A stretch of DNA of 64,000 nucleotides from Paramacrobiotus metropolitanus. Its lineage: Eukaryota; Tardigrada; Eutardigrada; Parachela; Macrobiotidae. The DNA lies in the NCBI RefSeq assembly GCF_019649055.1, contig NW_026570278.1, positions 744,001 through 808,000 on the forward strand, in the 5' to 3' direction. A program made the translations under genes and the position numbers. The notes beneath the pieces were generated by a model, which saw nothing but the letters and a program-made list of their open reading frames with translations, searched no databases and was not told the DNA's origin. Numbering within the stretch: the first letter of the stretch is position 1; every line of letters begins with the position of its first letter. Below, piece after piece: positions 14,996 through 42,880 of the stretch.

Positions 14996-15001
14996 AATAA
15001 A
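14996..15001 (+). terminator. Poly(A) signal of gene X1
   Basis: AATAAA follows the X1 stop by 26 bases, in the sequence AAGGACAATAAACTT. The same block is found, inverted, behind X2 (45,379-45,384), so it is conserved with the gene. Confidence 0.55.
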
Positions 15002-22045: not shown

Positions 22046-23546
22046 ATGCCCGCTGTTACCTTGTCCGTAGAGCAGCGAAATGCTTTGGAATTCTTCCGAC
22101 TACAACTTACAGGGGAAGTTCGCGATAGATGTTGTGTCGTCCAAGGAAAAGCGGGCAGCGGAAAATCAGTACTTTTGCAATCTATGCAAAGCTTATTGTG
22201 CTCGACTCAGCAGTACGGAAATACTTCTTATCTTCTCCTTGGACCGACAGGAGTTGCCGCTGATAACATAAATGGTTTGACCATTCATTCCAAGCTGCGA
22301 GTTCCAGTGAATCGCGCTTTTCGCGAACTTGAAGGCGATGAACTACATCGTTTTCAGGAAGAAATGGAAGACGTAAAAGTAATTCTCATTGATGAATTCA
22401 GTCTTATTGGCTGCACTTTACTTGGAAAAGTTGACAAGCGGCTGCGACAAGCAAAACCTGATCAAGGGCATCTACCGTTTGGTGGTTTAATCGTTTATCT
22501 CTTTGGAGATATTAAACAGTTGCCACCGGTTTTGGACCGTCCACTGTACGGTGATGGGTTTAGAAGTGAACTGGCTGACCACGGGCAGCTTATTTACCGA
22601 TCAGCATTCACCAAGGCATTCATATTTACCACATCACAACGACAAAGCGGAAGCGAACCTGAGCAGCAGCATTTTAGAGCACTATCAGCGTTCACTTTAC
22701 TGGACATCTCACGTGAGCGACAAAAGTGCCATCAGGCTTTTATGACAAGAGAATGGATTATGACCTCGCAATTATGGCCTACTTCAAGAAGATGAGCGCG
22801 ATAACTTCAAAAGTGCCATCAGGCTTTTTACTGAAAGAGAGCCAGCACGCCAGTACAACATTAAAGCCCTAACGGATCTCAAAATGCCCGTAGCGAAAAT
22901 TAAAGCGAAACACAACACCCCAACCGCTGCCAGAGGTAACAACACAACTTATTGCTAAACATCCCTATATTTCCGTCGCTTCATGCATTTCTGGTTTCGT
23001 GAAGGTAACGACCAACAGGCCATGGGCCTGGAGCCGGTTCTCTATTTATCAAGAGGATCACGGGTAATGTTGAAGCGGAACTTATGGGCGCATAGAGGGT
23101 TGGTCAACGGAGCGCTGGGTTTCGTTCGAGATATTAGCTATACGCCGGGCACATCTCCAGAAAACGCCATGCCGCTTGCAGTACTTGTAGAATTTGACAA
23201 GTGTAAGGGCCCGACTTTTGCCAACAACTGCATACCCATTTGCCCAATTACGTCAGAATGGATTGAGGGTGGTCACAAGTGTCTGCGCACACAATTTCCG
23301 CTAGCACTATCGTGGGCGATTACTGTCCATAAAGCACAGGGCATCACTTGCGATAGGGCCGTTATCCATCTCGGTCTGCGGGAATTTGCATCGGGTTTAA
23401 TCTACGTAGCCCTTTCCCGAGTCAAATCATGGAAGGGTTTAGCTCTGGAGCCAACGTTTCCTTTTTCGCTCCTATCGGGCATCAAGACAAAAAAGGCAAC
23501 GCTCCAGCGAATCAAGGAAGAGGAGCGTTTACTGCGGCTGCGATGA
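22046..23546 (+). pseudogene. PIF1-like helicase remnant (Helitron type), broken
   Basis: The first frame (22,046-22,795) has Walker A GKAGSGKS, Walker B ILIDEFSLIG and motif III GDIKQLPPV. The next block (about 22,770-22,960, another frame) continues with FKSAIRLFTERE and MPVAKIKAKH. The last frame (22,983-23,546) has LSWAITVHKAQGITCDRAV and GLIYVALSRV, the C-terminal PIF1 motifs. The AAAGTGCCATCAGGCTTTT block occurs twice (about 22,722 and 22,808), as if a local duplication broke the frame. No Rep nuclease is seen nearby, so the link to Helitrons rests on the helicase type and the repeat context. It could also be a decayed host PIF1 copy. Confidence 0.75.
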
Positions 23547-25551: not shown

Positions 25552-25916
25552 TATTATGCTAGATCCATCTGTGATCCAGATACGGCAACTAGAACAGAAC
25601 TAGTTCCGCGTAGTGAGCAATGCGATCTGTATAGCGAGCTATGCGGAAACGCAAGACGTCGCACCGCTAATTGCTGACTTTAATAATATTGACAAGTCTG
25701 CAGAACAGAAAAATCAACACTGCCGCGATACAGCGCGAGCATCAATCGGAGAGCCATTTCAACGCTGCTCCGCACGTGGGCTAAGTCCTGCCCACAAGAC
25801 ACAACACAATGGACGGCTATTGCCGTCAGCCAATCAGAGCGCAACACAACACAACACGGACACGTCATCGGCGCGCAGCGTTGCGGGCATGAACGCCAGT
25901 GAATCCCCCGCTCACA
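25552..25916 (-). repeat. 3' LTR (365 bp)
   Basis: Identical by eye to the 5' LTR at 42,516-42,880. On the coding strand it begins TGTGAGCGGGGG and ends TAGCATAATA. The usual TG...CA core is followed by TAATA, included because it is shared by both copies and makes the CATC target duplication work. Confidence 0.9.
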
Positions 25917-27382
25917 TGCCTCTGGGGGGAGGCCGAGCTCCGTTGAGGCTCAACATCCTCCAAATCCACGAAAAAGACGAAGGTCGCGACTGTGCTGTGT
26001 GTGCTGGTCTGCTAATAAAAACATCGAATCTCTTAGTCCATTTTATCACATCAGATTCCATTAAGTACAATTTCTCATAAACACGATGTGAATAAAGAGA
26101 TCTATTTATAAAAATACTATCAAATCAACAGAAACAGATCAACAGAAGTTTAATCAAATGTAGACTAGGATCCTCCGTTGACTCGTAAAGGTCACTGGTC
26201 CTGTCCACCGTTATTCCGCACTTTGGCCCATTCCGCTCTGTTGAGCAATTCCGCTTGAGCGCGCATTTATAATGCGACTTTCCATCACATGAGATCCGCT
26301 TGAGAATTCGGTGCGTATCAAGTACGACTTAGGAATACTGCTTCATCTTTGGATTTTGGTGCGTATCAAACGTACGACTTAATACTGAGATCCATAAAGG
26401 TCATGGAGGGACGTCATTGAAGACAAGCGTGATTCGCTTCCTCCCTGGTAAAGGTCATCCATTGTAAAGATGATCCGGGATGTGCGACTCATTTGGGCAA
26501 TGGTTCCAAAAGGTCATGCGACTTCGATTACATATTTATGACTCTGTTGGGCAGTAATGATCCCAAAGGTCATTCAACTTCTTCAAAACTTCAGCAAAGG
26601 TCATGGAGGAACTTAGCCGATTTTTGACGACTTTCAAGCGTTTTTTCGCTTGCCTCCCTGGTTAAACTTTCAACATGACCTTTCCGTCGCACATCCAACT
26701 TCAGTATGCCTCGAGCGGCCAGAGTGCCGGCATGGTTTTACCGTTGCATCTCCGATGGGGCCGGCTAGTTACCGCATTGAATTTACCCCATGACGCTTCC
26801 ACATTCAATCTTTTACTCTTGTTCGCCGCTTGTGGCCCATCTTTGTCTCGAGAGATCCGGTATAATGTCCGTAGTTTCTCTCGTTAAGTTCTGACACTGA
26901 ATCGCTTGGAGAGATGGCCGGCATATTTTACCGTAGCAACTCTAATGAGGCCGGCTGGCTGCCGCATTAAGTTTACCCCATTAACATTCCACCTGTTGTC
27001 TTTCTCTTTTTCGCCGCTTGTGGCCCCGTTTCGTGTTCAAGAGATCCGGCTTGGTTACCGTAGTTTCTCTTGCGAATTTATAACACTGAATCGCTTAAAG
27101 GGGAGAGCCGGCTAAGTGCCGTAGCTTCTGCATTGGGGCCGGCTTTACAGACCGAATCAATTTCAACCCCATCGATGCTCCACATGATTTCTTTATCCCT
27201 TGGGATTCTGTGCTATAAACGCTGAAAGCCACAATACACAAGTACAGTTTATGTTGATACGTTACGTGATCTTTGATACTCAACCATCGTATTCTCTTCT
27301 GATGACCTTTGGTTACTTTAACGTGATGACCTTTTACGTTTCATCATTAAGGTCAATATCTTCATTCTAACTCGGTGACCTT
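25917..27382 (-). other. Long 3' non-coding region of the LTR element
   Basis: No gene seen. From 26,180 to 26,600 there are several AAAGGTCA octamers in plus orientation, then TGACCTTT ones. A tandem repeat occupies 26,720-27,180. No clear polypurine tract is found just before the 3' LTR on the coding strand. Confidence 0.5.
26720..27180 (+). repeat. About 205-bp tandem repeat, 2+ copies
   Basis: The block GCCGGCT...TACCGCATT.AATTTACCCCAT... TTCGCCGCTTGTGGCCC ... GAGATCCGG ... CACTGAATCGCTT is present twice in full and a third time in part. The TTCGCCGCTTGTGGCCC piece also occurs in the 5' leader near 42,155. Confidence 0.6.
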
Positions 27383-27781
27383 TCACGTTTTGACGTTTAA
27401 GCTAAGTTCAAGCGCTGCGTCGAAATTAGAACATTCAGCAGTTTTTTTGATCCATTCCCCATCCTTTCTGATATTCAGTTTGAACATTTTGAGATCGACA
27501 TGCAGTTCAAAAAGGTCATTCAATGTCACTGCGTTTGTTCCGCCGATATTACTATATATTGTCCCTTCAGTTATGTCCATCTTACACGCCTTCATCTTGC
27601 CTTCGAAAGCACTACTGGTTTCTCGCCATGTTCTGTTGTTATCACTCAATGGTGCCCCGAGCATGTAATCTGGCACATCTTTCGCTTGTGTGCCGCTGGT
27701 TTCCGGTTTCTGGGGGGATGTCGAGTCCGCGGGCTCTGCTTCTTGGCCTTTCTGTCTTTCGTCAATTGTTAACTTTGCCAA
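27383..27781 (-). CDS. Small ORF downstream of pol in the LTR element
   Basis: 132 codons starting MAKLTIDERQKGQEAEPADS: a polar N-terminal third (Pro/Ser/Thr-rich), then a more ordered half (LFELHVDLKMFKLNI). No signal peptide or membrane span, so it does not look like an envelope. No family recognised. Its position after pol would need internal initiation or splicing. The only supports are its length and its place in an otherwise intact element. Confidence 0.4.
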   Translation of the reverse strand: MAKLTIDERQKGQEAEPADSTSPQKPETSGTQAKDVPDYMLGAPLSDNNRTWRETSSAFEGKMKACKMDITEGTIYSNIGGTNAVTLNDLFELHVDLKMFKLNIRKDGEWIKKTAECSNFDAALELSLNVKT

Positions 27782-28355
27782 TTATCCTGACGATGATTGA
27801 GCCGATTTCGGTTCATCAGAATTCTCTTTCTGATGTGAAGTCTCTTGACCTTTCAGTCTGTCCGTCGAGTTGACCCTTTGGTTCATCTGTCGCTTGACCT
27901 TTTGATTGTTCAGGCACGTGACCGCACTTCTTCCGTCACTTGACCATTTACTTGACCTTTCACTTCCTTTTAGGCTTCAGTCGACGTTTTTACTTCTTTT
28001 TGTGCTTAGTTAGAGTCCGATGACCTCTCGACTGGACGACAATTTCCGATGACCTTTCGTCCTTGATGACCTTTATGGTGACCGTTCTGACGACTTTGAG
28101 CACCTTTCGACCTTCCTGCTGATTCCGGACTCTCGTGACCTTTGCGGTATTCCATTAGAATTTTGGTCAGAGTATCTTGACCTTTCGATTGACCTTTCAA
28201 TTCTCCCGTATGATTCAGTCCGAGTCTGATGACCTTTACTTTTACCGCGTTTTCCAAACTCTCTTGACCTTTCTGACGTTTCCATTTGAACTGCAGTCAG
28301 ATTCTAGTGACCTTTCAACTTGAGGTCATTTTGTCCGAGTCTGGTGACCTTTCCA

Positions 28356-31300
28356 TTACCAACGAAACCGATACCGATTGGCTGGTTTGCGGCGGATGAC
28401 CTTTACACCTTCCCAACTCCCGTTCTTAATATCGTAAACGCCTGTTAATCTTATTTTCGGATTAATGTCTTTGCGTCCTTTAGTTATCCGATCAAATAGT
28501 TCTTTATCGGCGGCGTCTTCAAATTCACCCTTCTGAGTTAATAGTTCCGTGGGAGTTGGTCTCTTTTTCTTCTGTTTGACCTTTTGTTCTTCAATGGCCT
28601 TTGCTATATCGCGGCCTAATTGATCAGCTTTCATTTTGACCGTTTCCATTTCTTCTGCTCTCGTTTTTGTGAGGACATTATCGGTACCAGTGCGTGGTTC
28701 GAAAAAGTTATGAGAAATACGGTCTGCTATTACGTCGACGTTCGATTTGTCTTTCAAAAGGTCACTTTCTTCTATGGTAGCAGGGCGTGGTTCGAAAAGA
28801 GGCTGGTCTGAGTCTCTTTTTGGAGGACGCTCTGGTACCTCATTCTTGTCTGCCAGGTTTCCGGCTTCTGCGTTCAACTTTTTTGTGACTGCCGTTTCAA
28901 AATCCTTATCTTCTTTCCTTGGTCTTCCTCTTTTCTTCTTCGGTTTATTCGGATTTTGTGTTGTATCGGTTGCATCCATTTCGGGTAGCAGAGGTGGTTC
29001 GAAAAAGGATTCATTTTGAGGGGCATGTTCTGCTACCTCAGAGCCCGGTTCGGGGAAAGGCAGTTCCAAGTCTTTTTGGGAAGTGCGCTTTGCTATTTCT
29101 ACCGGTAATGGCGGATGCCACGGTTTCAGTCGGTCAATTGATACGACCTTTAAGTCCGCTTCCTTCTTTGGATTCTGTTCAATGACCTCCGCTTCATTTG
29201 CTCTTGGAAAACTGAGAATCTTCCACACTTTGTCGTATTTCGACTTAAAGTCCGATTGATTTTCTTTCTTCCCTTGTTTCGTGTCTTTCGGAAGTCGGAT
29301 CAGTACACGGTCACCCACTTTGAAATTCGGTTCCGATTTCTTCTTATTGTAGATTTCTGCATTCCTCTCATATGCGTCTTTAATATTACATTTCGCCACT
29401 TCTTCGGCAAAGGTCAAGTTCTTTTTCATGGTCTCCACCCATTCGTCTGGAGTCCCATAATCATCCGGCACGTTCGTTTTTGTTACCACATCTTCCGGCA
29501 TGGTCATTTCTCTGCCGTGTAACATGTAAAATGCTGAATAACCCGTTGTAGCATGTACGGCTCTATTCATTGCCGAAATGACGTATGGAAGGTACTTGTT
29601 AAACTTTCTTTCATTTCCAGCCTTCAAGTACTGTGCCAGGCCGTCCGCAATCGTTTGCATCTGTCGTTCCACTTGGCCTTGACCTTCTGGGTGATATGCA
29701 GTTCCAAACGTGTGTTTAATCTTGAACACGTTGGTGGCCTTTGTCAACACTTCGGCTGTAAAGTGCCGTCCCCGATCCGTATGTAGGATGTGAGGTGCTC
29801 CGTGTACCAATATCACGTGCTTGACGAACACTTTTGCGAACTCTTTAGCCGTTGCCGTTTTCATCGGTACTGCAATCACGTACTTCGTTAACTGGTCGAT
29901 GAACACCGCTATGTATTTGTATCCCCGATTCTTCGTCGGTAACAACGGTCCTTTCAAATCCGCGTAAACTCGGAAGAATGGATGTCCAACTTTTATTTCT
30001 TGCAGTTTTCCCGGTGGGCACTTTCTTGGTGTCTTGCGAAACTGGCATCCTTGGCAGGCAAGTATATAATTCTTCACATCTGTACTCATACGATCCCAGT
30101 AATATCGTAATCTGATTGCTGACAATGTCTTTTCAAATCCCAGATGTCCTGCCGCCTTCTCATCATGCAATGCGTGAATTATCGCCCTTCGCATTGACAG
30201 CGGTACGACATATGACCTTTCAAGTTTCCCATTTTTATCCTTTACTCGGTAAAGTATGCCATTCCACAATTGGTAGTGAACTTCGAATTTCGATCTGGTT
30301 TCAGCGTCTGGTAAATGTTCCAGTTCATCAATTATCATTGCCAGATGGGGATCTTTCAGCTGTTTGTTCCGCAATTGCAAATTCGAGTCATCTTCCTCTT
30401 CTTCGTCACCTTGGAGATTCACAATGCGGACTGTCGCCGTACTAAGTTCATTCCAATCTCGGATGACCTTACACCGAGGCAAAGGTTTATACCTCTTTTT
30501 CATCTGTTTCGGGAATCTCAACAGCTTAATCGGACATTCATTTAACGCTTGAACCACTTTGTCCGTTTCCCAAAGGTCATCTTGTTTCTCTACTGATGCA
30601 CCAAGTCCGGTGACCTTTCCATTCTGAGCTTCAGATTCCGCTCCAAGTCCGGTGACCTTTAAGTCACTATCGGTAGGCAACCAACTTTTAACACGGTTCA
30701 TATTTACGCCGTTATCAGCCGACTCCTTCGCCGTAGCCGAACTGACCTTTAGACGTTTTTCTCTCTGTTCAACCATTTGTAGAAACAACTGTCCAATTTC
30801 AATCGCTGGTTCTTTCGTATCGAATTCCTTTTTATAATCTTCGAAGTTAGGGATTTCATCGAATTCTTCCTCCTGGCATGTTGGACCTTCGATTGGCGCT
30901 CTTGAAAGTGCATCTGCGTTGTCACAGTACTTTCCCGGCTTGTATTCAATTTTAAACTGGTGACCTTGTAACGCCATAGCCCATCTCGTCAGACGCGGGT
31001 TCATTCCAACTTTATTCGTTTCTGACCTTAACAAGTTGGTCAGTGCCTGGTGATCCGTCCTTACGGTGAATTCCGCGTAATCAATAAACGGCTTGAATTT
31101 TCTGACAGCAAACACGACTGCCAGACATTCCCATTCGGTTACACCGTAACTCCTTTCCGCTCCATGTAAGACGCGACTTGCGTACGCGATCGGGTGTCCA
31201 TCTTGAGACAACACTGCTCCGATTCCTTCTTTACTCGCGTCGCATTCAATGACAGTTGGCTTTGCCGGGTCAAACTTCGCCAATACTGGGCCTTCACATA

Positions 31301-34300
31301 ATAACTGTTTCAGACTGTTGAATTCGTCTTCATGTACTTTATTCCAGTCCTTTTTCACTTGCTTATCTTGTCTCAGCAATTCGTATAAATGACACGTCTT
31401 CTGCACATATCCCATTATGAACTTGCGGTAATAGTTCGCCAGTCCAAGGAATGACCTTAACTGCCTTTCTGTTTGAGGTCGTTTGAATTCCGAGACTGCG
31501 GTGACCTTTTCAGGGTCCATTCGAATTCCATCTTCGCTGAGTATGTGACCCAGGAATCCCATTTCTTTCATGCCGAATTCACATTTCGTTGGCTTGATCG
31601 TGAATCCCGCTTCGACCAAACTCTGGAGGACGTTTCTCATATTTTGCATGAAGATTTCCCAAGTCTTTCCAGCGAAGATAACGTCGTCAATGTACCCGAA
31701 AACGCAACCCTTTCTTTTCGCTTTCGACAGTACTTTATCCATACACAATTGAAATGTTGCTGGTCCGTTACAAACTCCAAACGGCATTCTTTTAAACCGA
31801 AACATTCCGTCTTGAGTTACAAAGGTCGTCTTATTGATTGAGTCCGGATCCATTGGAATTTGCCAGAAACCACTTTGTAAGTCCATTTTGCCGTAATATT
31901 TGTTGCCTGCGCATGCATCTAGCAACTCATCTGGATTCGGTAACGGATAGTTATTCTTCTTCGTTAATTTATTCAGCATGATGTAGTTGACGCAGAATCT
32001 TGTTCCCATCGTTCCGTCGCCATTCTTTTTGGCTGCCAGCACGACTGGAAAACTCCAGTCGGCGTCTGACGGTTCAATCACATCTTGCGCCAACATCTCC
32101 TCAATGTGCTTTGTTATGAACTCTCGGCCTGTCCAACTCGTTCTGGCCGGGTTACATTTCACTGGTCTGGCATCTCCCGTATCAATTACATGAGTGATTC
32201 CTTTCACGTCTCCGTACGGTTTCTTGGAAGTCGGTAAGACTTTCCAGAATTCCCAGAACGCGTTGTACACGTCATTCTTCTGTTCCTCTGTAAGGTCAGG
32301 TCCCAATTTCAAGTTCCCGATAATCTTTGTCAATTCCGCTTTCGTTATGTCATCCACCTCGGGGTCATCCAACACGTTCTTTACTGTCCCCGTGTTGACC
32401 TTTACACTTTCCATGTGCTCGTAAGGCACCACGTAGCCGAGAAGCTGATTCTTCTTTACTGTTAACCTTTTACTACTATGATTCGCGATGACCAGCTCGA
32501 AGAATTTTCCTCGGTGTTCCGTCACTCCTGCTAATGGTTGCACCTCAGTTTCAGCTTGCAGCACCGGTGTGAACATCAATTTTGTTGAGGCTGGTGCATA
32601 TCTGCCCATCTTGATCTTTACTCGTGTGCAAATTGACGGTTTCAGCTTGATTTGCTGGTCGCTATAAACTCTGATTACACCCTTATCCAGTCTCGTTCGC
32701 TGAATTTTGACCCTTCTGACTTTAATATCTTGTTCTTTTTCTTCATCAACTTCATCGTCTTCGTCCAAGTCCAGCAAGTCTTCTTGCTCGGAAAGGTCAT
32801 TTACACCTGAATCTTCTGAAGTCGTTGAATTATCACTTGAACTCGTCCATTCCGAGTCAGAGTCACTGCTCCTGCCTTCTTGTGCAGTTACTTGACCTTT
32901 GTCAAGTCTTTCAAGTGGGCGTTCATCAACTCCTTCATCTCCCGATGAAAGGTCACTCTCGTTTTCCTGCAAATCGCTAAGTTTTTTCGCTTTCAGGTTT
33001 TTGAGCAGAGGTTTGCCCGTTTCCTTCGTCTTCTTTCCATATCGTGCGGCGATTCTCGGGTGACTCCGTGCCACTCGTATTTTTGCCGATGACCTTTTTG
33101 TTTCATCCAAATTTGACCTTTCTTCATTCTGTTTTGAGCCTTCCAATTCATCAATCTCTTCGAGGCTCATTAATGACCTTTTGGTCTGACCAACCGGCAG
33201 ACATTCTTCACCGTTATCGAGTGACCTTTCCTCGTTTTTTGCCTCAGGTACTGGGATCTGTAGTCCATTCGATAACCTTTCCACTTCCTCTTGGAACTTT
33301 TTCCACATTGCTCCCCTATCGGTCAACATTTGTGCCATTTCAAAAGCATTTGGGGATCGTTCTTCAGTTGCACTCGATTCCTGTTCAGCTGCTTCTGTTG
33401 GCAGTTTCTCTTTGTCCGCTTCTTTTGCAGACTCTTCATCTGCCTTATCTTTTTGAACCGTTTCGTAACCTTTAGGTCGTTTAGGACCAACGAAGACGCA
33501 ATTTGCCATCAGCTCTTCGGTGATCCAATCATCGCTTGGAATCGTTTCATACATGCACCACGTATCACCACCGCGTTCCGGGTATTCAACTCCGTCAGGG
33601 TCTGGTGCAAAGGTCACTTTCTTTTTTATCATGAAACCCACTTCTCTTCTTTTTCGAGTCACTTGTAACTCCCGCATTTCTTTAACGTCAAATTTAGGAA
33701 TTTCATCTTCGAACTTCTTCCAATACGCTTCAAATATATCCGCGTCGTCGTGGTGAAGTGCCTTACAGAATTGTTCAACTGACTCATAAACTGGTGTGCC
33801 GAGTCCTGATCGGAAGGTAATCGTTTTCCCTTGACCTTTGTACATATGATTAATGCGGAAGTCCCAGAATAACTCTATTCTCGCGTCTTCCCATAATTTG
33901 ATCTCTTCGTTCATTTCTTCGGTTTCAATTTCAAGTTTCCGTTTTGACAATAACACTTCGTGAGGATCCTGGATACCTTTATCCGCGCACTTTTCCCAAT
34001 AGTGCAACCACTTTCCCCTTCCATATATGAAGTTCCTGACGCATGATAGCCACGTCCGGTATCTATTCCAATGATATCGCTCGATGTGTGGATTACACAT
34101 GCTCACTGTCCGTAAGATACTTCGCACTTCTTTCGGGACATGACCTTTAAGGTCTGCTATCGCTGCGTTACATTTTGGCCATTCTGAAAGGTCATCTTGG
34201 GATGCAACCCGGCTACATTTAGTGCATTCCCCTTGCGGTTGTATTCTGCGCGGGTCCTCATAGTAACCATGATGGCAACTCCCGGCTCTTTCTTCTGGAG

Positions 34301-36416
34301 TTAGGATTCTATCCGTTGGCGGTTTGACCTTTACATCTTTTCGTTTTGTGGCGCTGTGCTCACGTTCAATTATTATCACACTCTCTTCATCTGAGGATAT
34401 TTCGATGACCTCTGGTGCCGTTTTCTTCTGATGACCTTTCAGCTGTTCAATCGCTTTGCCGCGAATTTCGCTTGCGAACATCTGTTCTTCTTCAGTTATC
34501 CGTTTCAATATCTCCAATGGGACTTCCATCTTTTTGGTTTTCCGGACTTTGACACTTTTTACTCCCGGTGCCTCTGGTACTGGGATAGGCTTTGACCACT
34601 CCAAGCCTGGCACGAGCGATTCTTTCGCTGCGACTACCGCCTCCTTCTGTATGGCTGCAATTTCTTCAAGTGTTGGTGACCTTTCATTTTCGGTTCCCAG
34701 TGCCTCTGGTACTGGGATAACTTTTTCACCACTTTCCTTTCCATTTCCTTTCTCCGGTGCCTCTGGTACCGGGATTTCTTCTTGCTGCGCTTTTACCCCT
34801 TTCTGTTGCACCTCTGTCATTCTCGGTGCCTCTGGTACCGGGATGACCTTTTCTCTTCCCTTTTGTGACAGCACTGATCGTTTCAGCGTGTTTTCGATTT
34901 CCTGCTGGATCATCTTCATTTGTTCGAATACCGACAATTCTTTCGGTTTCGTTCCCTGTGGCTCTGGTACTGGGATTAGCCTTTTATCGGTTTTCACAAG
35001 TTCGGTGACCTTTCCGACTTGAACTTTGACAACTGGTTTCTGGTCATCTTCTTTCTCCTCTTCACCTTCATTATCGATCAGTACGAACTTCTTCTCTAAG
35101 AAGTCGAATCCCAGTAGCACCTGTACGTCGTCACATTTCGGTCGCACGTAGAAGGAGTGTTCACTAGTCTTTCTCCTTAAGGTCACTGGTGCTGTGCAGT
35201 AATGCGTGACCACGAATCCCGACGTTCCACTGATTCCGTTAATCCTTACAAGTCTGTCAGGTGGCAATGGAAGCATATGAAGTCCATTCTTCTCACAAAA
35301 CGGTTTACTAATTAGCGACGTTTCAGCTCCAGTATCCAGCATTGCGGTGACCTTTATGTCCCCAACTTTTACTTCGTGTGTGTTAGCTTCAATTCGCTTG
35401 GGCAATCTTCCGTTTTGAATCTTCAAGTTTCGGATAGTACATTTCACTGGGATTAATGATACTGGTCCCGGATCCATATCGGGAATTATTTGCCCTTTCG
35501 TTGAAGTGCCATGATCTTTCAGTATCTCACTCAGTTTATCGATTCTGTGTGGCACTTTAGTCCGGACATCATAAAACTCTCGAGTCTTGTTCCTTACTTT
35601 TGACTCGGCACTGGTGACCTTTCCAGTGTTGCACTTTTGCCCATCCGGTGAAGTGTAAGCGCTGTGACCTTTAGTCACTTCGGTTATCGTCTGGTACAGT
35701 GTCATTTCTTTCCGCTTATCTTTCGACTTGTCACGCAATTTCTCCAAGACTTCTCGGGTTATTCGTTCAGCGAGAGTCAATTCCTCTTCTTCACTATCTT
35801 TTAATTCTTCAGGTGACCTTTCGTAGACGACCATCTTTCGATCGTTACCCGTCATCCAGTCATTAACCTTTTGAGTCGCTTCATTATTTATTCGCGTCCA
35901 CTCTGTTTGCGAAGTCATCCCTTCACTTTTCGTTGGTGACCTTTCAACTGCATTATTCCGTTGAGCTTGCACCACCTCATATGACCTTCCTTTTTGTTCA
36001 TTTTGCGCTAAGTCCGATGACCTTTCGTTGCGCTTCATGACAAATCCGCCACTCGGTAATTTCTGTAATGGGACCTTTTCTCCATAATTTGACGGTTTGT
36101 CTTCTGGCGGTGAATTCCGTGGGTCCTTCATGTCAGCGAGTGTCTTCTTATATTCCGCTTCGTTGAACACTGGGACTGGGTTCTGTGACCTTTGAACTGG
36201 TTTCCCGGTAACCAATTCTTCTAATCTTCTCCTTTCGTTTTGCGTGTGTAACTGTTGCATGTCCCATTCCTCTAATCTTTTCTTTTCACCTTGTGTGCGT
36301 AACTGTTGCATCTCCCGGTAATCCTCTTGCGACATTCTCCTTTTTGTTTCGCCTTTGGGGTCACGGGTATCCACATCCCGTGATTCCCATTTGGTCGGTA
36401 GGCCACTTTTTGCCAT
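28356..36416 (-). CDS. pol: pol polyprotein of the Ty3/gypsy element (2,686 codons)
   Basis: Single open frame with, in order: a long polar N-terminal region; an aspartic protease with DTGAETS near residue 358; a 1,100-residue insertion rich in charged residues and several IPVPEAP-type repeats; RT with YIDDV near 1,575; RNase H (ECDASKEG, RTDHQALTN near 1,790); integrase with HHCC zinc finger (about 2,085-2,125) and catalytic D, D, E (ADLKGP, HTDRGRHF, QGQVERQ; about 2,150-2,247); and a C-terminal tail with the AT-hook KKKRGRPRKEDK near 2,497. Typical pol proteins of this family are about half as long. The ATG at 36,416 follows an in-frame stop about 80 nt upstream; the preceding ORF overlaps it by 145 nt in another frame, suggesting recoding. 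AAAGGTCA octamers encode its many (E)RS, KGH and KVT tripeptides. Confidence 0.9.
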   Translation of the reverse strand: MAKSGLPTKWESRDVDTRDPKGETKRRMSQEDYREMQQLRTQGEKKRLEEWDMQQLHTQNERRRLEELVTGKPVQRSQNPVPVFNEAEYKKTLADMKDPRNSPPEDKPSNYGEKVPLQKLPSGGFVMKRNERSSDLAQNEQKGRSYEVVQAQRNNAVERSPTKSEGMTSQTEWTRINNEATQKVNDWMTGNDRKMVVYERSPEELKDSEEEELTLAERITREVLEKLRDKSKDKRKEMTLYQTITEVTKGHSAYTSPDGQKCNTGKVTSAESKVRNKTREFYDVRTKVPHRIDKLSEILKDHGTSTKGQIIPDMDPGPVSLIPVKCTIRNLKIQNGRLPKRIEANTHEVKVGDIKVTAMLDTGAETSLISKPFCEKNGLHMLPLPPDRLVRINGISGTSGFVVTHYCTAPVTLRRKTSEHSFYVRPKCDDVQVLLGFDFLEKKFVLIDNEGEEEKEDDQKPVVKVQVGKVTELVKTDKRLIPVPEPQGTKPKELSVFEQMKMIQQEIENTLKRSVLSQKGREKVIPVPEAPRMTEVQQKGVKAQQEEIPVPEAPEKGNGKESGEKVIPVPEALGTENERSPTLEEIAAIQKEAVVAAKESLVPGLEWSKPIPVPEAPGVKSVKVRKTKKMEVPLEILKRITEEEQMFASEIRGKAIEQLKGHQKKTAPEVIEISSDEESVIIIEREHSATKRKDVKVKPPTDRILTPEERAGSCHHGYYEDPRRIQPQGECTKCSRVASQDDLSEWPKCNAAIADLKGHVPKEVRSILRTVSMCNPHIERYHWNRYRTWLSCVRNFIYGRGKWLHYWEKCADKGIQDPHEVLLSKRKLEIETEEMNEEIKLWEDARIELFWDFRINHMYKGQGKTITFRSGLGTPVYESVEQFCKALHHDDADIFEAYWKKFEDEIPKFDVKEMRELQVTRKRREVGFMIKKKVTFAPDPDGVEYPERGGDTWCMYETIPSDDWITEELMANCVFVGPKRPKGYETVQKDKADEESAKEADKEKLPTEAAEQESSATEERSPNAFEMAQMLTDRGAMWKKFQEEVERLSNGLQIPVPEAKNEERSLDNGEECLPVGQTKRSLMSLEEIDELEGSKQNEERSNLDETKRSSAKIRVARSHPRIAARYGKKTKETGKPLLKNLKAKKLSDLQENESDLSSGDEGVDERPLERLDKGQVTAQEGRSSDSDSEWTSSSDNSTTSEDSGVNDLSEQEDLLDLDEDDEVDEEKEQDIKVRRVKIQRTRLDKGVIRVYSDQQIKLKPSICTRVKIKMGRYAPASTKLMFTPVLQAETEVQPLAGVTEHRGKFFELVIANHSSKRLTVKKNQLLGYVVPYEHMESVKVNTGTVKNVLDDPEVDDITKAELTKIIGNLKLGPDLTEEQKNDVYNAFWEFWKVLPTSKKPYGDVKGITHVIDTGDARPVKCNPARTSWTGREFITKHIEEMLAQDVIEPSDADWSFPVVLAAKKNGDGTMGTRFCVNYIMLNKLTKKNNYPLPNPDELLDACAGNKYYGKMDLQSGFWQIPMDPDSINKTTFVTQDGMFRFKRMPFGVCNGPATFQLCMDKVLSKAKRKGCVFGYIDDVIFAGKTWEIFMQNMRNVLQSLVEAGFTIKPTKCEFGMKEMGFLGHILSEDGIRMDPEKVTAVSEFKRPQTERQLRSFLGLANYYRKFIMGYVQKTCHLYELLRQDKQVKKDWNKVHEDEFNSLKQLLCEGPVLAKFDPAKPTVIECDASKEGIGAVLSQDGHPIAYASRVLHGAERSYGVTEWECLAVVFAVRKFKPFIDYAEFTVRTDHQALTNLLRSETNKVGMNPRLTRWAMALQGHQFKIEYKPGKYCDNADALSRAPIEGPTCQEEEFDEIPNFEDYKKEFDTKEPAIEIGQLFLQMVEQREKRLKVSSATAKESADNGVNMNRVKSWLPTDSDLKVTGLGAESEAQNGKVTGLGASVEKQDDLWETDKVVQALNECPIKLLRFPKQMKKRYKPLPRCKVIRDWNELSTATVRIVNLQGDEEEEDDSNLQLRNKQLKDPHLAMIIDELEHLPDAETRSKFEVHYQLWNGILYRVKDKNGKLERSYVVPLSMRRAIIHALHDEKAAGHLGFEKTLSAIRLRYYWDRMSTDVKNYILACQGCQFRKTPRKCPPGKLQEIKVGHPFFRVYADLKGPLLPTKNRGYKYIAVFIDQLTKYVIAVPMKTATAKEFAKVFVKHVILVHGAPHILHTDRGRHFTAEVLTKATNVFKIKHTFGTAYHPEGQGQVERQMQTIADGLAQYLKAGNERKFNKYLPYVISAMNRAVHATTGYSAFYMLHGREMTMPEDVVTKTNVPDDYGTPDEWVETMKKNLTFAEEVAKCNIKDAYERNAEIYNKKKSEPNFKVGDRVLIRLPKDTKQGKKENQSDFKSKYDKVWKILSFPRANEAEVIEQNPKKEADLKVVSIDRLKPWHPPLPVEIAKRTSQKDLELPFPEPGSEVAEHAPQNESFFEPPLLPEMDATDTTQNPNKPKKKRGRPRKEDKDFETAVTKKLNAEAGNLADKNEVPERPPKRDSDQPLFEPRPATIEESDLLKDKSNVDVIADRISHNFFEPRTGTDNVLTKTRAEEMETVKMKADQLGRDIAKAIEEQKVKQKKKRPTPTELLTQKGEFEDAADKELFDRITKGRKDINPKIRLTGVYDIKNGSWEGVKVIRRKPANRYRFRW

Positions 36417-37276
36417 ATTTCCTTCCGTTGCAGCGTTACTGCATCCACCAGTGAGTCGTCGGAGTCCTGTTGTGCCCGTTCGCTATCCTTTTGCTGCGCT
36501 GTTCGCAGTGTCAAGTCCGTTTCTTGACCTTTTACCGCGACGCTGTCGCCGTGACCTTTAGCGTTTGCACCAACTCCTTGACCTTTCACTTGGACTTTTC
36601 CCACGGAAGGTGACCTTTCATTCTCCGAACATTTGCAGAACTTTGGCTTCAGCCCTGTATTTTCCGTTCCAACTATGAAACAGTTGCAGCATGACTCTAA
36701 TTCCGGTTGTCGTCCTTTCGCAGTATCATTCAGCGGTGGTGACCTTTGTCCGTTCAATTTTTCATTTTCTTCCCTGTTTTTCCGGAACCACGCATGGTGT
36801 GCTTCCACCTCTTCTGCGGTGTCAGTCTGCGGTTTCTTTTGATTCAGCAACGCCTGTTGAATCTTCGCATTCCGTAATGCGCGTCGTTCCGCTAACACCT
36901 TCTCGCTGCAGTACGGTGACCTTTCACTTTGCTGCACTTTTTGCAGTGTCGCGCTACCGTCACGACAATTCCCACTCGCAGTACCATTCTGCGGTGACCT
37001 TTGGTCCCGTTGCGCGTTTCCACTCGCAGTGACGTTCTGCGGTGACCTTTTGTCCACTTGTGCTGGTTTCCCGATTACCAGTTCTTGTTGCTGCTGTAAC
37101 GGCATCCGTATAGCCGTTTCATTTCTCTTTTGCGTTGACGGCATCCATCTAGCCGTTTCCTTCGGTTGCGGCATCCATATAGCCGGTCCATTTTCCTTTT
37201 GCTGTGACGGCATCCATATAGCCGTTTCATTTTGCGCTGACGGCATTCTTATAGCCGTTGCTTTCGGTTGCGGCAT
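36272..37276 (-). CDS. Intermediate ORF between gag and pol, with WMP repeats
   Basis: 334 codons, frame different from gag and pol, overlapping the pol start by 145 nt. The N-terminal part is a tandem repeat of the pattern AIWMPxxxK/TAIRMP (five to six units), then Cys-rich CCNCF...FCKCSEN and a basic C terminus (KVKRKD). The frame is also open upstream of the ATG with a CSEC.HC cluster, so it may continue gag by frameshifting. It could be a nucleocapsid-like extension; function unknown. Confidence 0.55.
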   Translation of the reverse strand: MPQPKATAIRMPSAQNETAIWMPSQQKENGPAIWMPQPKETARWMPSTQKRNETAIRMPLQQQQELVIGKPAQVDKRSPQNVTASGNAQRDQRSPQNGTASGNCRDGSATLQKVQQSERSPYCSEKVLAERRALRNAKIQQALLNQKKPQTDTAEEVEAHHAWFRKNREENEKLNGQRSPPLNDTAKGRQPELESCCNCFIVGTENTGLKPKFCKCSENERSPSVGKVQVKGQGVGANAKGHGDSVAVKGQETDLTLRTAQQKDSERAQQDSDDSLVDAVTLQRKEIWQKVAYRPNGNHGMWIPVTPKAKQKGECRKRITGRCNSYAHKVKRKD

Positions 37277-37330
37277 CCATACAGCCGGTCCACTTTCCTT
37301 TTCGCTGACGGCATCCGTATAGCCGTTGCA
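37093..37330 (-). repeat. About 30-40 bp coding minisatellite (GGCATCCATATAGCCG)
   Basis: Seven occurrences of GGCATCC(A/G)TATAGCCG-like units at irregular 30-40 bp steps encode the WMP/RMP repeats of the intermediate ORF. Confidence 0.65.
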
Positions 37331-37430
37331 GTGGTCACATTCACTGCAGTACTATTCTGCAGTGGTGACCTTTCCGTTCCCCCTTTATCCGGTGGTTTAG
37401 GGTCGGGGCGATCAGCAGGCTCACCGGCGC

Positions 37431-38900
37431 CTACTGATCTTGCCCGTTTCCCTGAACCGGCGCACCTCCTTGTTGCGCGCCCTGCACATTTCCACCGTCA
37501 TTTGCCGGGTTCTGTCCGCCGCCATTATTCGGGGCACCACCACCCTGTTGGTAGTTTCCTTGGCCGCCGCCATTGCCGCCACCCCGGTTATTGTTGTAAT
37601 TTCCGCGGCCGTAGCCTCTTCCCCTTCCTCTGAAGCCGCCGCGGCCGTAGCCGCCATTCTGGCCACCGCCGTTTCCGTTTCCATAGTTCCCGTTTCCTTG
37701 CTGGTTTTGGAAATTTGCTTTGTGCTGATACCATTGGGCGATGAGGTCATATCCGTTATTCACTGCTAGGCGCCAACCGCCAATCCCGCGCAGTCGTTGC
37801 CACTCATTAAAGGCGAACAAGTTCGGGTTCTGGTCTGGCGGTGTGTTGGCGAACTTGCATCCCTGTGTCTGATGATTGCCGTACATGCAGTGTTGGCACA
37901 TCTGCACTCCGTTCGCTACCCATCCATCAATCAACTGGAATTTGAATTCTGTTCGTGACCCTTGGTTTTGCTGGTAGTTCTGGTTTCCTCTATTAGGCTG
38001 GAAGTTGCCTTGACCTTGACCTTGGTTCTGGAAGTTTCCTTGACCTCCGTACCGGTTTCCATTTCCGTATCCATTTCCGCCAAAGTTACCCTGTTGCGGT
38101 GCCCCTACGTTCAGGGGAGGCATATTCTGAGGTACCGGTGGAGCCACATTCTGGGCTACTGGCCTCACTTGGGCCGCTGCCTGTATTGCAGCCACCATGG
38201 CATACGTCATCGGTTGTCCCGTCTGGCTGTCAATAAAGGTCACTTCTCTGGTGACCTCCTGAACCGGAGCTTCTCTGCGGTATTCCGTCTGCTGAACTGG
38301 TGCCGCTACATTTCGTTGTTGTGACACCGGTTCAACTGGTCCTGTGCGAATCGTTACATATTCCTGGTTGCGTTGACCTTTAGGCGCCTTGTATTTTTCC
38401 TCTCCAGTTGCCCAGTGTCGGAAGAAGTCCTTTACATCAGTTGGCGTTTTGCACTTTTGTGTACGCAGTGCCTTGTAGAGTTCATTGTCCGCTCTGCATC
38501 CTTCAATTAAGAAGCCAACTGCTTGCTTCTCAGTGATGATTCTCTTTGCTTTGAAGCGCATCATCGCCTGGTAATACTGGTCAAGCGATTCCTTCCCGAG
38601 TTCGAATTTCCTTGCGTAGGCCTCTCGTAAGCCTAAGACTTCTTCGTCTCGGTCGCCATATTCATCTTTGAATTTATCCATCCATTCAGTGATTGTATAT
38701 TCGATTCCATCTTCTGCTGCAATGTCCTTTTCTCCTTCGAACCAAGTTTTGGCAGGACCTTTCACCGCACTGGCTATCTCGATCATAATTTGATCGTCCG
38801 TGAGCTGGTAGGTCCTTTGAGTTTCTTTTACCAGTCGTGTCCAGCCACTCACAGTGTCACGGCTTCCGTCAAAGGTCGTAAGAGGTGTTTTCCGGGCCAT
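37431..38900 (-). CDS. gag: gag of the Ty3/gypsy element
   Basis: The ATG at 38,900 (MARKTPLTTFDGSRDTVSG) opens a capsid-like region: WTRLVKETQ, KGPAKTWFEGEKD, then YARKFELGKESLDQYYQAM, typical of the retrotransposon Gag fold. A CCHC knuckle CQHCMYGNHQTQGC lies near residue 332. The C terminus is Gly/Asn/Arg-rich with RGG-like boxes (RGGFRGRGRGYGRG), which should bind RNA. The frame is also open a little upstream, but only from a TTG. Its start lies five bases after the stop of the coiled-coil ORF. About 490 aa, within the family range. Confidence 0.88.
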   Translation of the reverse strand: MARKTPLTTFDGSRDTVSGWTRLVKETQRTYQLTDDQIMIEIASAVKGPAKTWFEGEKDIAAEDGIEYTITEWMDKFKDEYGDRDEEVLGLREAYARKFELGKESLDQYYQAMMRFKAKRIITEKQAVGFLIEGCRADNELYKALRTQKCKTPTDVKDFFRHWATGEEKYKAPKGQRNQEYVTIRTGPVEPVSQQRNVAAPVQQTEYRREAPVQEVTREVTFIDSQTGQPMTYAMVAAIQAAAQVRPVAQNVAPPVPQNMPPLNVGAPQQGNFGGNGYGNGNRYGGQGNFQNQGQGQGNFQPNRGNQNYQQNQGSRTEFKFQLIDGWVANGVQMCQHCMYGNHQTQGCKFANTPPDQNPNLFAFNEWQRLRGIGGWRLAVNNGYDLIAQWYQHKANFQNQQGNGNYGNGNGGGQNGGYGRGGFRGRGRGYGRGNYNNNRGGGNGGGQGNYQQGGGAPNNGGGQNPANDGGNVQGAQQGGAPVQGNGQDQ

Positions 38901-38905
38901 GGAGT

Positions 38906-41134
38906 TTAGTGCCTTGGCCAATTCCCTTGCTGATTTCTGGTTGTTGTCTTCGTCACTAGAGCTATTGCTGTCATCGCTATATCGACGACGCCGTGCTGCC
39001 TTCTTTTCAGATCGTGTTTCTTGCTCCTGTCTGCGGGTCGTTCATCCCGTCGTTGTTCATCTTCGATGACCTTTGTTTCCATGTGACGAGCAAAGTGTGA
39101 GGTTCCGTCGAAGATCGGTGGTCGACTGTGACCTTCTGATAGCCGATCCTTATCCCCGTTTGCCTTGTCGCCATCTCTTTCCGTTTTGACACTTCCTTTC
39201 CCAGTGCCAGTTCGTAGTGGCATCTCGAAGTGGTAGCTCTTGCCCGTTTCATGCGCATTGCTGTAACTGGGCGGCGGAGACTCCACTGTTGCCGTTTTAA
39301 CTCCGTGCTGCAGGAGTTGCTCATCCTTATGCTTGTTCGACGTCTGGAGCGCCTTGTTTTCGTCCTCGAGGCGTCTAACTTTCAAATGGAGGTCATCTCG
39401 CTCTAACTTCAACTCCGTATTCTCTTGCTTGACCTTTCGTGTATGGTCCTGCCATTTGAAAGTCTCCCTTTGTACCACTTTTGCGTTTTCTTCTTGCGCT
39501 TTGTTGATATGTTCGGTCAACTGTTTCACATCCCCCTCGAGTTTCTGGTATTCTTCGGCTGCTGATCTCAGTTGATTCTTGATCGCAATCAACTCATCGT
39601 CCTTCGCTAATGCTGTGGTGGTCATTTCCACCAGGTCGGTATTAAGCTTTGTAATCTCCTGATTCCTTTGAGCCACCTGCTGTTGCGATTCCTTATCTTT
39701 CAGTTCTAACGCTGTGACCATTGTGTCCAGTCGTCGTGCTTCATTTTGCCACTTAAGTCCCTCCTTGGTGACCTTTTGAATGTCTGCGGTGACCTTTTCA
39801 TTTTCATCATTGACCTTTTTAATCTCTTCCTTCAATCTTTCTCCTTCTGTCGCTGTGATGTTTCTCGCTTCGCGCATTGCTTTAATTGCCTCATTGCGCA
39901 ACTTCTCAGCCTCATCGGCGCGTTCTTGATGACCTTTCGATTCGTGTTGCAGAGTACTGATAGCTTCCTCCCGTAGCTTCATGTCGTTCCTAAGCTTGAA
40001 CGTCTCCGTTGCCAATGTTGTCAACCGTTGTGTGACCTCTGCGAATTTGGTCGCGTACTCGTCCCGTTTAGTTTCAGCTTCAGTGACCTTTTGACGCAAC
40101 TGGTCACATTCAGCCATCAATTCTGCCAAGTGCCGTGACCTTTCTGCCGATTCCTCTGACATACTTTCGTTAAGGTCACTGACGGCAAGATGACCTTCCA
40201 TTGTTCTGTCATCTGCCATTTTCAAATATTCCTCCGCTAGTTCCTTCTGTTTTTCGTATTTAACCTTCCATTCGTCTGCTGCACTCTCGAGGTCACCTTT
40301 TTGAAGTTCCAATTCATACAAGCGGGTCTCGAATGATACCAATCTCTCCTGGTATTCTGTTTTCCGTTTAATTGCCTGACCTTCCTTAGTGTTCAGTTCG
40401 CTTTCCAATTCCTGGACGCGTCTCCTCAGAGTTGACGTAGGACTGTTCGGTGAAGGTGATCGAACGTTGATGACCTTTCCTGTTTGTGTCCGTTCAATGA
40501 GGTGCTCTGGAATGTCCTTAAACGGGGTCATCCCTTCTGCTCGGTCGGCTTCTTTCATTGCGTTTTGGAAGGACATATTCATTGTCGTTTCATCGTCCGT
40601 GAAATATGATTCATTTGATTCATCCGATGCCATTGGAGTCGCCCAAAGGTCATCACCAACCGTCTTATTGTTGAGTGAAAGGTCATCCAATCCGAGTTCC
40701 CTCAGTTCATCCTCGGTGACCTTTGTGTTTCCACCTTCCGTTTGAGCCAGGGTCACCCCTTTATCCTGCTCATCCGTTTTAGCGACGGCTACATCCGACT
40801 GTGATGTGCCAACTGCTTCAGTTCCTTCTGTGACCTTTGTGTGATGCGCATTGCTATCTCCCGCCACAGACGCGGGGGTATGTTTCTGCTTCTGGTCGTC
40901 ATTGGAGCTTTCCTGGTTGGCGACCGCCTCGAGCGCCTTCTGATAAGTGCTATCAGAGCCTCGCGAATCCTTCTTCTCGAATGCCTTAGGCGCTCGAGTG
41001 TTCCGCTCATGTCCAACTGGACGTGAATATGTGTGTAAATCCTTTTTGTACGGGTTCGGTGCGCCTTGCTGTGAACCCCGGGAGCCGCGGCTTCCCTGAC
41101 TGCCGGTAGATGTCGGTTCCTCTTTGTCTTCCAT
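38906..41134 (-). CDS. Coiled-coil ORF upstream of gag in the LTR element
   Basis: 742 codons starting MEDKEEPTSTGSQGSRGSRG. The first third is disordered and acidic (TDDETTMNMSF). From about residue 225 to 620 there is an almost unbroken heptad pattern (LRRRVQELESELNTKEGQ, ELELQKGDLES, KLREEAISTLQHESK), a long coiled coil like those of cytoskeletal rods. Its TAA (38,908-38,906) is followed by ATG of gag five bases later in another frame, so termination-reinitiation is plausible. A protein of this kind before gag is not standard for Ty3/gypsy. It could be an N-terminal Gag extension or a captured host coiled coil. Confidence 0.65.
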   Translation of the reverse strand: MEDKEEPTSTGSQGSRGSRGSQQGAPNPYKKDLHTYSRPVGHERNTRAPKAFEKKDSRGSDSTYQKALEAVANQESSNDDQKQKHTPASVAGDSNAHHTKVTEGTEAVGTSQSDVAVAKTDEQDKGVTLAQTEGGNTKVTEDELRELGLDDLSLNNKTVGDDLWATPMASDESNESYFTDDETTMNMSFQNAMKEADRAEGMTPFKDIPEHLIERTQTGKVINVRSPSPNSPTSTLRRRVQELESELNTKEGQAIKRKTEYQERLVSFETRLYELELQKGDLESAADEWKVKYEKQKELAEEYLKMADDRTMEGHLAVSDLNESMSEESAERSRHLAELMAECDQLRQKVTEAETKRDEYATKFAEVTQRLTTLATETFKLRNDMKLREEAISTLQHESKGHQERADEAEKLRNEAIKAMREARNITATEGERLKEEIKKVNDENEKVTADIQKVTKEGLKWQNEARRLDTMVTALELKDKESQQQVAQRNQEITKLNTDLVEMTTTALAKDDELIAIKNQLRSAAEEYQKLEGDVKQLTEHINKAQEENAKVVQRETFKWQDHTRKVKQENTELKLERDDLHLKVRRLEDENKALQTSNKHKDEQLLQHGVKTATVESPPPSYSNAHETGKSYHFEMPLRTGTGKGSVKTERDGDKANGDKDRLSEGHSRPPIFDGTSHFARHMETKVIEDEQRRDERPADRSKKHDLKRRQHGVVDIAMTAIALVTKTTTRNQQGNWPRH

Positions 41135-42503
41135 TATGATCGGATAACCAGGACGTCCCTGTCAATATATCTCGAACACGTGTTATAGTACGGTACGTTC
41201 AAAGATCCTAAAGGTCACTTTTACTTCGCAAAATTTTTCTAAGTCCTTCGTAAAGGTCACTTTTTGGTTGAAAAAATTTGACTAAGTCCTTGTTAAAAGT
41301 CACTTTTTGGACAAAAAGTTCGAGAGGTTTGCCCTAAAGGTCACTTTTCCCGCAAAACTTCGAAACCCGTTTTACAATTTAGGACACATCCAGAAAACGA
41401 TATTCTACAGCTGTCGATATCACTGTAATATTCAGAAACTTAAATTCGTTTCGTTAAAGGTCACCATTGGTCACTTTCAGATCTTAAAAGGTCACTTTTC
41501 AAGTCAATTAGGTCACTTGGAACTTTTTAGTAAAGGTCACTTTCGAATGTCAAAGGTCACTTTCTGATCTCAAAGGTCACTTTACTACTCATCTCAACTC
41601 AAAAGGTCACTTCCCAGCTCAAATAACTCGTCTCAGTTCAAAATTCTCAGTTCTCGTTCAGATCAATGGAAAATCCCCAATAAAGTTGTTTACTCCATTC
41701 CTATTGGTCTGCTAGTTCAAAATATTCAGTTCAAATTTCGACCAATCACAGTTAAAATAGCCGACCAATCATGGTAGTCCGTTAAAAATTTATATCCACC
41801 TGACGTCACGGTCAATGACCAGACTAGCGCACCGTGTGCAAAACTCCGCCTATTTCTACACTCAGCTCAGTATAGACCAATGAAAATTGCCAAATTTTAG
41901 CAACTAACCAATCCCGTAATTAATAACGGTTTTCTACCTGTTAACCGTCCGTTTCCACGAGAAAATGATCCCAATGATCCAGAATCTTCTCCACGTTCCG
42001 TTCCCGCGGTGCCGCCGGTTTTACCGTAACGGTTGTGCCGCACGCTTTTAGTCAGTTACTGTGCCGGCTGACTGCCGTAGCAACAGTGATAGTGCTCTAC
42101 AACCAGTTTGGAGGAGTCTGATCTGTCTTTTCCCGTGCACCCCTTTTGGCGCTTCGCCGCTTGTGGCCCACGGCTTAGGATTCGCTGAATCCTTGCCGAG
42201 CAACAGTGACACCAGCGCAGGTCTTCGCTGAAGACTCTGCACCGAGGAACACTGTCAACTGAACTCTTGAACTCTTTCACAGCTGAGGAACAGCACAGGT
42301 CTTCGCTGAAGACGCTGTACCGAAAACCAAAGCTGGTAATCCGCGTCCGATGGAGGAAATTCACCGCTTGTGGTGTGCACTTTGCTGTCACACTGACCTG
42401 TGCCTTACTGGTCACGGATAACACGTCAGATAACAGGCCAAATATGCCTGACACAAATCAAATTAAATCAGATCAATCACTTCAAATCAGAGAACCGCTG
42501 TCG
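41135..42503 (-). other. 5' leader of the LTR element, motif-rich
   Basis: No gene seen. Between 41,205 and 41,605 I count nine AAAGGTCA octamers in plus orientation, each followed by C and mostly ACTTT, opposite to the prevailing orientation in the ORFs. A TTCGCCGCTTGTGGCCC piece near 42,155 is shared with the 3' non-coding region. Confidence 0.6.
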
Positions 42504-42515
42504 GCTCTGCTACCA
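42504..42515 (-). promoter_or_regulatory. Primer-binding site, initiator Met tRNA type
   Basis: On the coding strand TGGTAGCAGAGC directly follows the 5' LTR. The first 11 bases are complementary to the 3' end of animal initiator Met tRNA (CTCTGCTACCA). This is where first-strand synthesis would be primed. Confidence 0.75.
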
Positions 42516-42880
42516 TATTATGCTAGATCCATCTGTGATCCAGATACGGCAACTAGAACAGAACTAGTTCCGCGTAGTGAGCAATGCGATCTGTATAGCG
42601 AGCTATGCGGAAACGCAAGACGTCGCACCGCTAATTGCTGACTTTAATAATATTGACAAGTCTGCAGAACAGAAAAATCAACACTGCCGCGATACAGCGC
42701 GAGCATCAATCGGAGAGCCATTTCAACGCTGCTCCGCACGTGGGCTAAGTCCTGCCCACAAGACACAACACAATGGACGGCTATTGCCGTCAGCCAATCA
42801 GAGCGCAACACAACACAACACGGACACGTCATCGGCGCGCAGCGTTGCGGGCATGAACGCCAGTGAATCCCCCGCTCACA
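42516..42880 (-). repeat. 5' LTR (365 bp)
   Basis: Identical by eye to the 3' LTR. It should contain the element's promoter. Outside it the CATC duplication (42,881-42,884) joins Y2 exon 4. Confidence 0.9.

Follow-up and report, generated by a model that had tools for sequence, protein, structure and literature searches.

The sequence analysed here, referred to as the window, is a 64,000-nucleotide stretch of the tardigrade Paramacrobiotus metropolitanus (RefSeq assembly GCF_019649055.1, 169.8 Mb in 533 contigs; contig NW_026570278.1, positions 744,001 to 808,000). It contains a long terminal repeat (LTR) retrotransposon of the Ty3/gypsy type along which one octamer, AAAGGTCA, is repeated at high density. 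A preliminary description, made from the sequence alone, had recognised a giant LTR element saturated with this word; its extent was corrected to 17,329 bp, from 25,552 to 42,880 with both LTRs included, on the minus strand. The 3' LTR (25,552 to 25,916) and the 5' LTR (42,516 to 42,880) are each 365 bp long, and since they do not show a single difference, a recent insertion is suggested. CATC is found on the outer flank of both LTRs as a short target duplication, and a primer-binding-site region lies directly inside the 5' LTR (42,476 to 42,515, minus strand; sense sequence TGGTAGCAGAGCC and onward, a stretch beginning TGG). Pfam domains in the pol open reading frame (ORF) follow the order protease (PR), reverse transcriptase (RT), RNase H (RH), H2C2 and rve integrase (IN), and Ty3 is the nearest solved structure for RT and RH (best PDB matches 7q5b and 4ol8). 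The element was assigned to the Ty3/gypsy group on this RT similarity, the PR-RT-RH-IN order, the paired LTRs, the short duplication and the primer site. A protein search for relatives of its gag product, in which 7,996 candidates were scored, gave nine relatives, all nine from P. metropolitanus.

Read in the sense direction, the element consists of the 5' LTR, a leader, a coiled-coil ORF, a gag-like ORF, a 334-amino-acid (aa) ORF, pol, a non-coding tail and the 3' LTR. Words are called sense or antisense relative to the element, antisense words being those that read AAAGGTCA on the plus strand. The leader cluster (41,210 to 41,609, plus strand) holds nine words, all antisense, seven of them in the form AAAGGTCACTTT; nine had been counted before at 41,205 to 41,605, and eight end by 41,605 with the ninth at 41,609. 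On the minus strand follow the coiled-coil ORF (ORF1, 742 aa, 38,906 to 41,134; 11 sense and 2 antisense words), the gag-like ORF (496 aa, 37,431 to 38,921; one word in each orientation), which has an RG/QN-rich tail and a CCHC zinc knuckle recognised by eye, the 334-aa ORF (ORF3, 36,272 to 37,276; eight sense words) and pol (2,686 aa, 28,356 to 36,416; 27 sense and 7 antisense words). The tail (26,676 to 28,352, minus strand) carries 16 sense words, 11 of them within 500 bp after pol, and one antisense word at 27,511, and a 3'-end cluster at 26,187 to 26,603 (plus strand) consists of six antisense words. The 17 perfect words reported earlier between 35,001 and 37,380 were recovered as TGACCTTT, and the words do run through pol, gag, the coiled-coil ORF and both non-coding ends, as had been stated. 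The peptides IPVPEA and AIWMPS recur in the region 36,272 to 37,276 and in pol with DNA repeats alongside, among them two 73-bp copies at 37,128 to 37,302 that are 89% identical.

Ten relatives in the same genome, chosen by RT identity among 150 scored, were read for comparison. In relatives C181, C32, C44, C97 and C9 a single open frame covers the coiled-coil and gag parts, which are two overlapping frames in the window copy, and in C44 the ORF3 part and the upstream part of pol share one open frame. After pol, an open frame of 675 to 714 aa is present in C181, C32, C6 and C44 (675 to 692 aa in these four) and in C27 and C176; at that position the window copy, C9 and C59 have a word-rich tail and no such long frame. 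The window copy thus has no long ORF after pol of the kind expected for an Errantivirus-like env, and the 3' ORF of the relatives looks hydrophilic by eye.

The element contains 90 words, 64 sense and 26 antisense, with none in the LTRs and only three in the remaining 46.7 kb of the window. In the 15-kb stretch tested, 88 words were observed where a second-order Markov model predicts 1.6 on both strands, and these figures rule out chance or composition as their source. Genome-wide, the word occurs 42,562 times and its reversed form 15,522 times. The word is also sharp, since its 24 one-letter variants are far rarer, with 0 to 5 sense and 0 to 4 antisense copies each. Tandem Repeats Finder detected the word, or most of it, in the repeat unit of only two arrays, both in the leader (41,209 to 41,317 and 41,469 to 41,583), which excludes one tandem block as the origin of the whole set. 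The comparison with other copies called for in the preliminary description showed that 6 of the 11 copies, the window's included, are word-rich: in 15 kb each, C181, C32, C97, C9 and C59 have 66 to 92 words, while C6 has 8, C68 2, C27 1, and C44 and C176 none. The base after the word (+8) is G in 1 of the 90 window words and, when the six word-rich copies are pooled, in 9 of 358 sense words and in none of 119 antisense words; these copies are related and do not count as independent. Avoidance of splice donors was considered as a reason and rejected, as the antisense words avoid G too. The recognised unit can be read as AAAGGTCAH, the word followed by A, C or T.

It had been claimed that selection or copying acts on the nucleic acid and not on the protein, and a codon-preserving shuffle had been named beforehand as a control able to refute this. 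Synonymous shuffles gave counts far below those observed: in pol, 2.33 sense words expected against 27 and 0.17 antisense words against 7, and for sense words 0.95 against 8 in ORF3, 1.28 against 11 in ORF1 and 0.09 against 1 in gag. Of the 90 words, 57 lie within ORFs. We considered whether a constraint on the peptide motifs ERS, KGH and KVT, which do recur in the translations, could yield the words. We regard this as practically excluded: most words are lost in the synonymous shuffles, which refutes an origin in protein motifs; all three frames are used, with 5, 10 and 12 sense words in frames 0, 1 and 2 of pol, as the preliminary description had noted in general terms; and the non-coding leader and tail are filled.

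The amino acid sequences permit the word at 68 places in the ORFs (58 sense and 10 antisense), and 57 of these carry it, whereas 60 permuted words used as a control occupied 50 of 504 permitted places. In the 334-aa ORF, all eight permitted places are used. Counted on selected open frames of the relatives (three in C97, four in C32, four in C44, six in C6 and three in C27), the filled places were 73 of 87 in C97, 44 of 53 in C32, 0 of 24 in C44, 5 of 26 in C6 and 0 of 7 in C27. Since the word-rich copies also have more places that permit the word, their proteins seem to have been bent to it, and selection for the word seems to shape the protein segments that read ERS, KGH or KVT.

Divergence at third codon positions between the window copy and 29 related loci was 0.014 inside words and 0.353 outside; this comparison covers 14 words of the window copy within 3.7-kb RT loci. 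Diversity at third positions among the 29 loci was 0.028 in words against 0.276 outside, and none of 2,000 random sets of 8-mers was as low. Words were defined in the window copy alone, since choosing word columns by their presence in at least two loci biases diversity down. In pairwise comparisons with the window copy, taken in both directions, fully conserved word cells numbered 95 of 138 for C32 (21.5 expected), 93 of 138 for C181 (23.5), 64 of 134 for C97 (5.0) and 74 of 153 for C59 (5.1), the expectation being taken from other 8-mers with equal flank identity over the stretches of the copies read. The corresponding figures were 12 of 77 for C6 (3.3 expected) and 0 of 69 for C44 (4.7). Pairwise alignments can be drawn onto shared words where flanks are poor; the third-position test is mostly free of this pull, as is a test limited to flanks at least 70% identical, in which 36 of 41 words were kept in C32 (8.7 expected) and 7 of 8 in C97 (0.9 expected). 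That strong selection acts on the nucleic acid is strongly supported by these results.

The preliminary description had also offered gene conversion as a means by which the word may spread. In a broader form, in which gene conversion, slippage or template switching copies the word without selection for it, this has some basis in the leader, where some of the words belong to tandem repeats of 20 and 43 bp and seven of the nine share a 12-mer. Only these leader words look tandem-duplicated. Elsewhere the printed flanks look unrelated, words that are not shared although their flanks can be aligned are mostly found at substitutions (0 to 3 indel cases per comparison), and most of the places that the proteins permit are filled. 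The nearly unchanged third positions likewise indicate purifying selection and not spread, and copying as a general explanation is very improbable.

The word-poor copies are not simply the most distant ones. Identity to the window in ORF1 is 55% for C44 and 53% for C6 against 36 to 41% for the word-rich C97, C9 and C59, and the same ranking holds in gag (63% and 61% against 53 to 54%) and in pol (75% and 66% against 60 to 61%). The word is thus almost absent from two close relatives. A tree of the region before RT forced the word state to change twice; two changes were needed but not forced in a gag tree, and an integrase tree needed one, weakly supported. Of 88 words of the window copy that were compared, 38 recur at the corresponding aligned position in each of the two other word-rich groups; C44 keeps none of these 38 and C6 six (5 and 11, respectively, fall in gaps). 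As these words are common to distant word-rich groups and gone from C44 and largely from C6, the word was most likely ancestral and then lost in the C44/C6 lineage. In C44, all five aligned places with flanks 90 to 93% identical to the window are broken, and where flanks are at least 70% identical 0 of 19 words are kept with 3.3 expected (P about 0.02), against 3 of 17 with 1.7 expected in C6; this is at most suggestive of purging in C44. Avoidance of the word at the codon level in C44 was rejected, as 115 of 300 synonymous shuffles also contain none.

Other, weaker short words were seen in the word-poor copies. GAGCTGA occurs nine times in the C44 leader, always sense, and ten times sense in its body, and a sister copy retains 7 of the 11 places examined, against a background 7-mer conservation of 0.30. 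G[GT]CCAA is found in the body of the distant relatives C68, C27 and C176, where the stretch from ORF1 to RT has 39 to 58 sense and 10 to 12 antisense copies; their leaders have hardly any. It could be either another word or a product of protein composition.

The orientation of the words follows a recurrent pattern. The preliminary description had them mostly sense in the ORFs and antisense in the leader and near the 3' end; this split was confirmed, with the correction that sense orientation runs on into the tail and that the flip consists of the last six words. The stretch that begins with the coiled-coil ORF and ends at element position 16,197 has 64 sense words against 11 antisense ones, and 16 of the 17 words in the tail (element positions 14,528 to 16,197) are sense, so that coding constraint alone does not explain the polarity. 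Before the first open frame, antisense words make up 8 of 8 in C97, 8 of 8 in C181, 9 of 9 in C32, 8 of 8 in C59 and 7 of 8 in C9, whose one sense word sits upstream of the array; for C181, C32 and C59 the count covers part of the leader. All six word-rich copies therefore have an antisense leader, and C9, the one relative whose 3' end was read, repeats the flip there (6 of 6 words).

Such polarity is what a function in the genomic RNA could produce, either as a dispersed packaging or compaction signal bound by Gag or as a duplex in which UGACCUUU in the leader and 3' end pairs with AAAGGUCA in the body. The antisense leader and sense body common to all six word-rich copies, together with the antisense orientation of both 3' ends read, would supply complementary partners within one RNA, and Gag has its zinc knuckle. 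However, a single-stranded binder would need one orientation, and both are conserved: between the window and C32, with flanks at least 60% identical, 14 of 15 antisense and 31 of 42 sense words are kept, with the same preference at +8. A pairing model should moreover disfavour A at +8 about as much as G, yet the window sense words have A 17 times and G once, and the sense body itself contains eleven antisense words. We consider a function at the RNA level unlikely, and an RNA-binding protein as reader, suggested earlier, is disfavoured on the same grounds. A microRNA sponge was dismissed by reasoning only, as a target in the sense orientation leaves the conserved antisense words unexplained. 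The like conservation of both orientations and their single flanking preference favour double-stranded DNA as the target.

We give about an even chance to the reading that the words form a dispersed array of binding sites for a sequence-specific DNA-binding protein, one more likely encoded by the host than by the element. In this Ty3/gypsy clade of P. metropolitanus, AAAGGTCA followed by A, C or T would be a recognition site in double-stranded DNA, and a protein, probably of the host, would bind 60 to 90 such sites along each copy and spare the LTRs and the adjoining DNA. Binding might benefit the element by holding the copy, or its cDNA, in open chromatin, retaining it in the nucleus or shielding it from silencing. 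The nearest precedent for such an array is found in the VANC-bound motifs of plant transposons, from which the present one differs in being embedded in codons. If the density of sites matters, selection would fill most of the places that the proteins tolerate. A more specific proposal, which we advance tentatively and with less confidence, is that of a DNA address embedded in codons: a nine-base word with recurrent polarity, filling most permitted places, read by the host, and discarded or perhaps replaced when the reader changes or is escaped.

A reader encoded by the element itself and co-evolving with the word would be comparable to VANC21, which binds a 9-bp motif arrayed densely and in one orientation in VANDAL21 of Arabidopsis (PMC5735166). 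Candidates would be the coiled-coil ORF1, the linker between PR and RT, the AT-hook-like C-terminus of pol or the lost 3' ORF. Some sister lineages have the word and others do not, pol has an AT-hook-like KKRGRPRK stretch (below the cut-off of Pfam AT_hook), and the word-poor lineages have weaker other words. Scanning the window proteins in segments of 40 aa, we found one segment shared by the word-rich and divergent in the word-poor copies, ORF3 residues 241 to 280, but it overlaps two words, and in most segments it is the word-poor copies, and not the distant word-rich ones, that resemble the window more closely. The scan thus shows no clear co-varying protein region and tilts the balance to a host reader, so that an element-encoded reader appears doubtful; if it were true, the element would correspond, among animal retroelements, to the VANC system of plants.

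Several points weigh against an array read by a host DNA-binding protein. The scan would miss a reader whose specificity is set by few residues, and it leaves out pol residues 1481 to 1720 and the 3' ORF, which is absent in the window copy. A plain double-stranded site needs no fixed orientation. The sites turn over: of 29 C97 words whose flanks are at least 60% identical, only 13 are matched by a word in the window copy. The word-poor C44 and C6 retain long open frames, which indicates that the word is dispensable for the clade. VANDAL motifs are mainly non-coding (PMC5735166), whereas here the word fills retrotransposon coding sequence at permitted places. Within a single genome, sister lineages that carry the word and sister lineages that lack it provide a natural experiment on the role of the array in anti-silencing, expression, packaging or targeting.

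A nuclear receptor, proposed in the preliminary description, is a possible reader. The octamer is identical to NBRE, the monomer site of NR4A receptors (PMC8267906), and to this extent the proposal held. The host does encode nuclear receptors, its proteins giving 63 zf-C4 matches. Eight of these were read and named by eye; we take one to be FTZ-F1/NR5A-like, two to have ERR-like DNA-binding domains (DBDs) and the rest to be others, and no NR4A-type DBD was recognised among these 8 of 63. NR4A sites prefer A/T before the octamer, and ERR and NR5A sites prefer T. The window words show neither preference, the preceding base being G in 33, T in 21, C in 18 and A in 18, and are a poor fit to these receptors in this respect. 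NBRE also differs as a response element of host genes, where here about 90 copies are found per element, in codons as well, with G avoided after the word. If a host receptor does read it, the body of the element would have been turned into a binding platform.

Elsewhere in the window, another retroelement with a 595-aa ORF and a reverse transcriptase domain (RVT_1) lies at 4430 to 6217, a PIF1-like helicase match, possibly derived from a Helitron, at 22,046 to 22,795, and arrays of a 9- to 10-bp unit, GGTTTCTTA / TTTTCTTAGG, at 62,947 to 63,205 and 59,372 to 59,442. Rfam and tRNA scans of the window gave no matches, and PHROGs gave weak matches only.

Compared with known systems, the element shares its gag-like ORF and PR-RT-RH-IN order with Ty3/gypsy LTR retrotransposons and differs from them in its length of 17.3 kb, the extra coiled-coil ORF before gag and the word array. 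No report of such an array was found among the open-licence papers listed on the octamer, LTR retrotransposons, retrotransposons of Paramacrobiotus, tardigrade Gypsy elements (including PMC11071193 on two Hypsibiidae), dispersed signals or receptor sites. Dispersed binding sites in a mobile element are known in kind; what is unusual is the depth to which this array is embedded in codons. The VANDAL arrays (YAGTATTAY; PMC5735166) likewise consist of a short motif at high density with one orientation per array, rare in other families and with a motif spectrum that differs between related families, and the present words too are dense and mostly of one orientation per block. VANDAL motifs are often in tandem repeats and have a known element-encoded reader, whereas here the word belongs to the tandem unit in the leader arrays only, and the array is not the mainly non-coding, tandem-born motif of the VANC type. 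The gypsy insulator of Drosophila, in which Su(Hw) sites are clustered in the 5' untranslated region, is similar in that the leader of a Ty3/gypsy element holds a cluster of binding sites, but its sequence is different and its sites are confined to the leader. DNA uptake sequences, Chi and KOPS are short bacterial words that selection on DNA has dispersed through coding sequence, in some cases with strand polarity; unlike this element, they belong to cellular genomes and have prokaryotic readers. The element is an unusual example among eukaryotes of selection for a short DNA word that overrules the choice of codons and moulds the proteins encoded along a mobile element.

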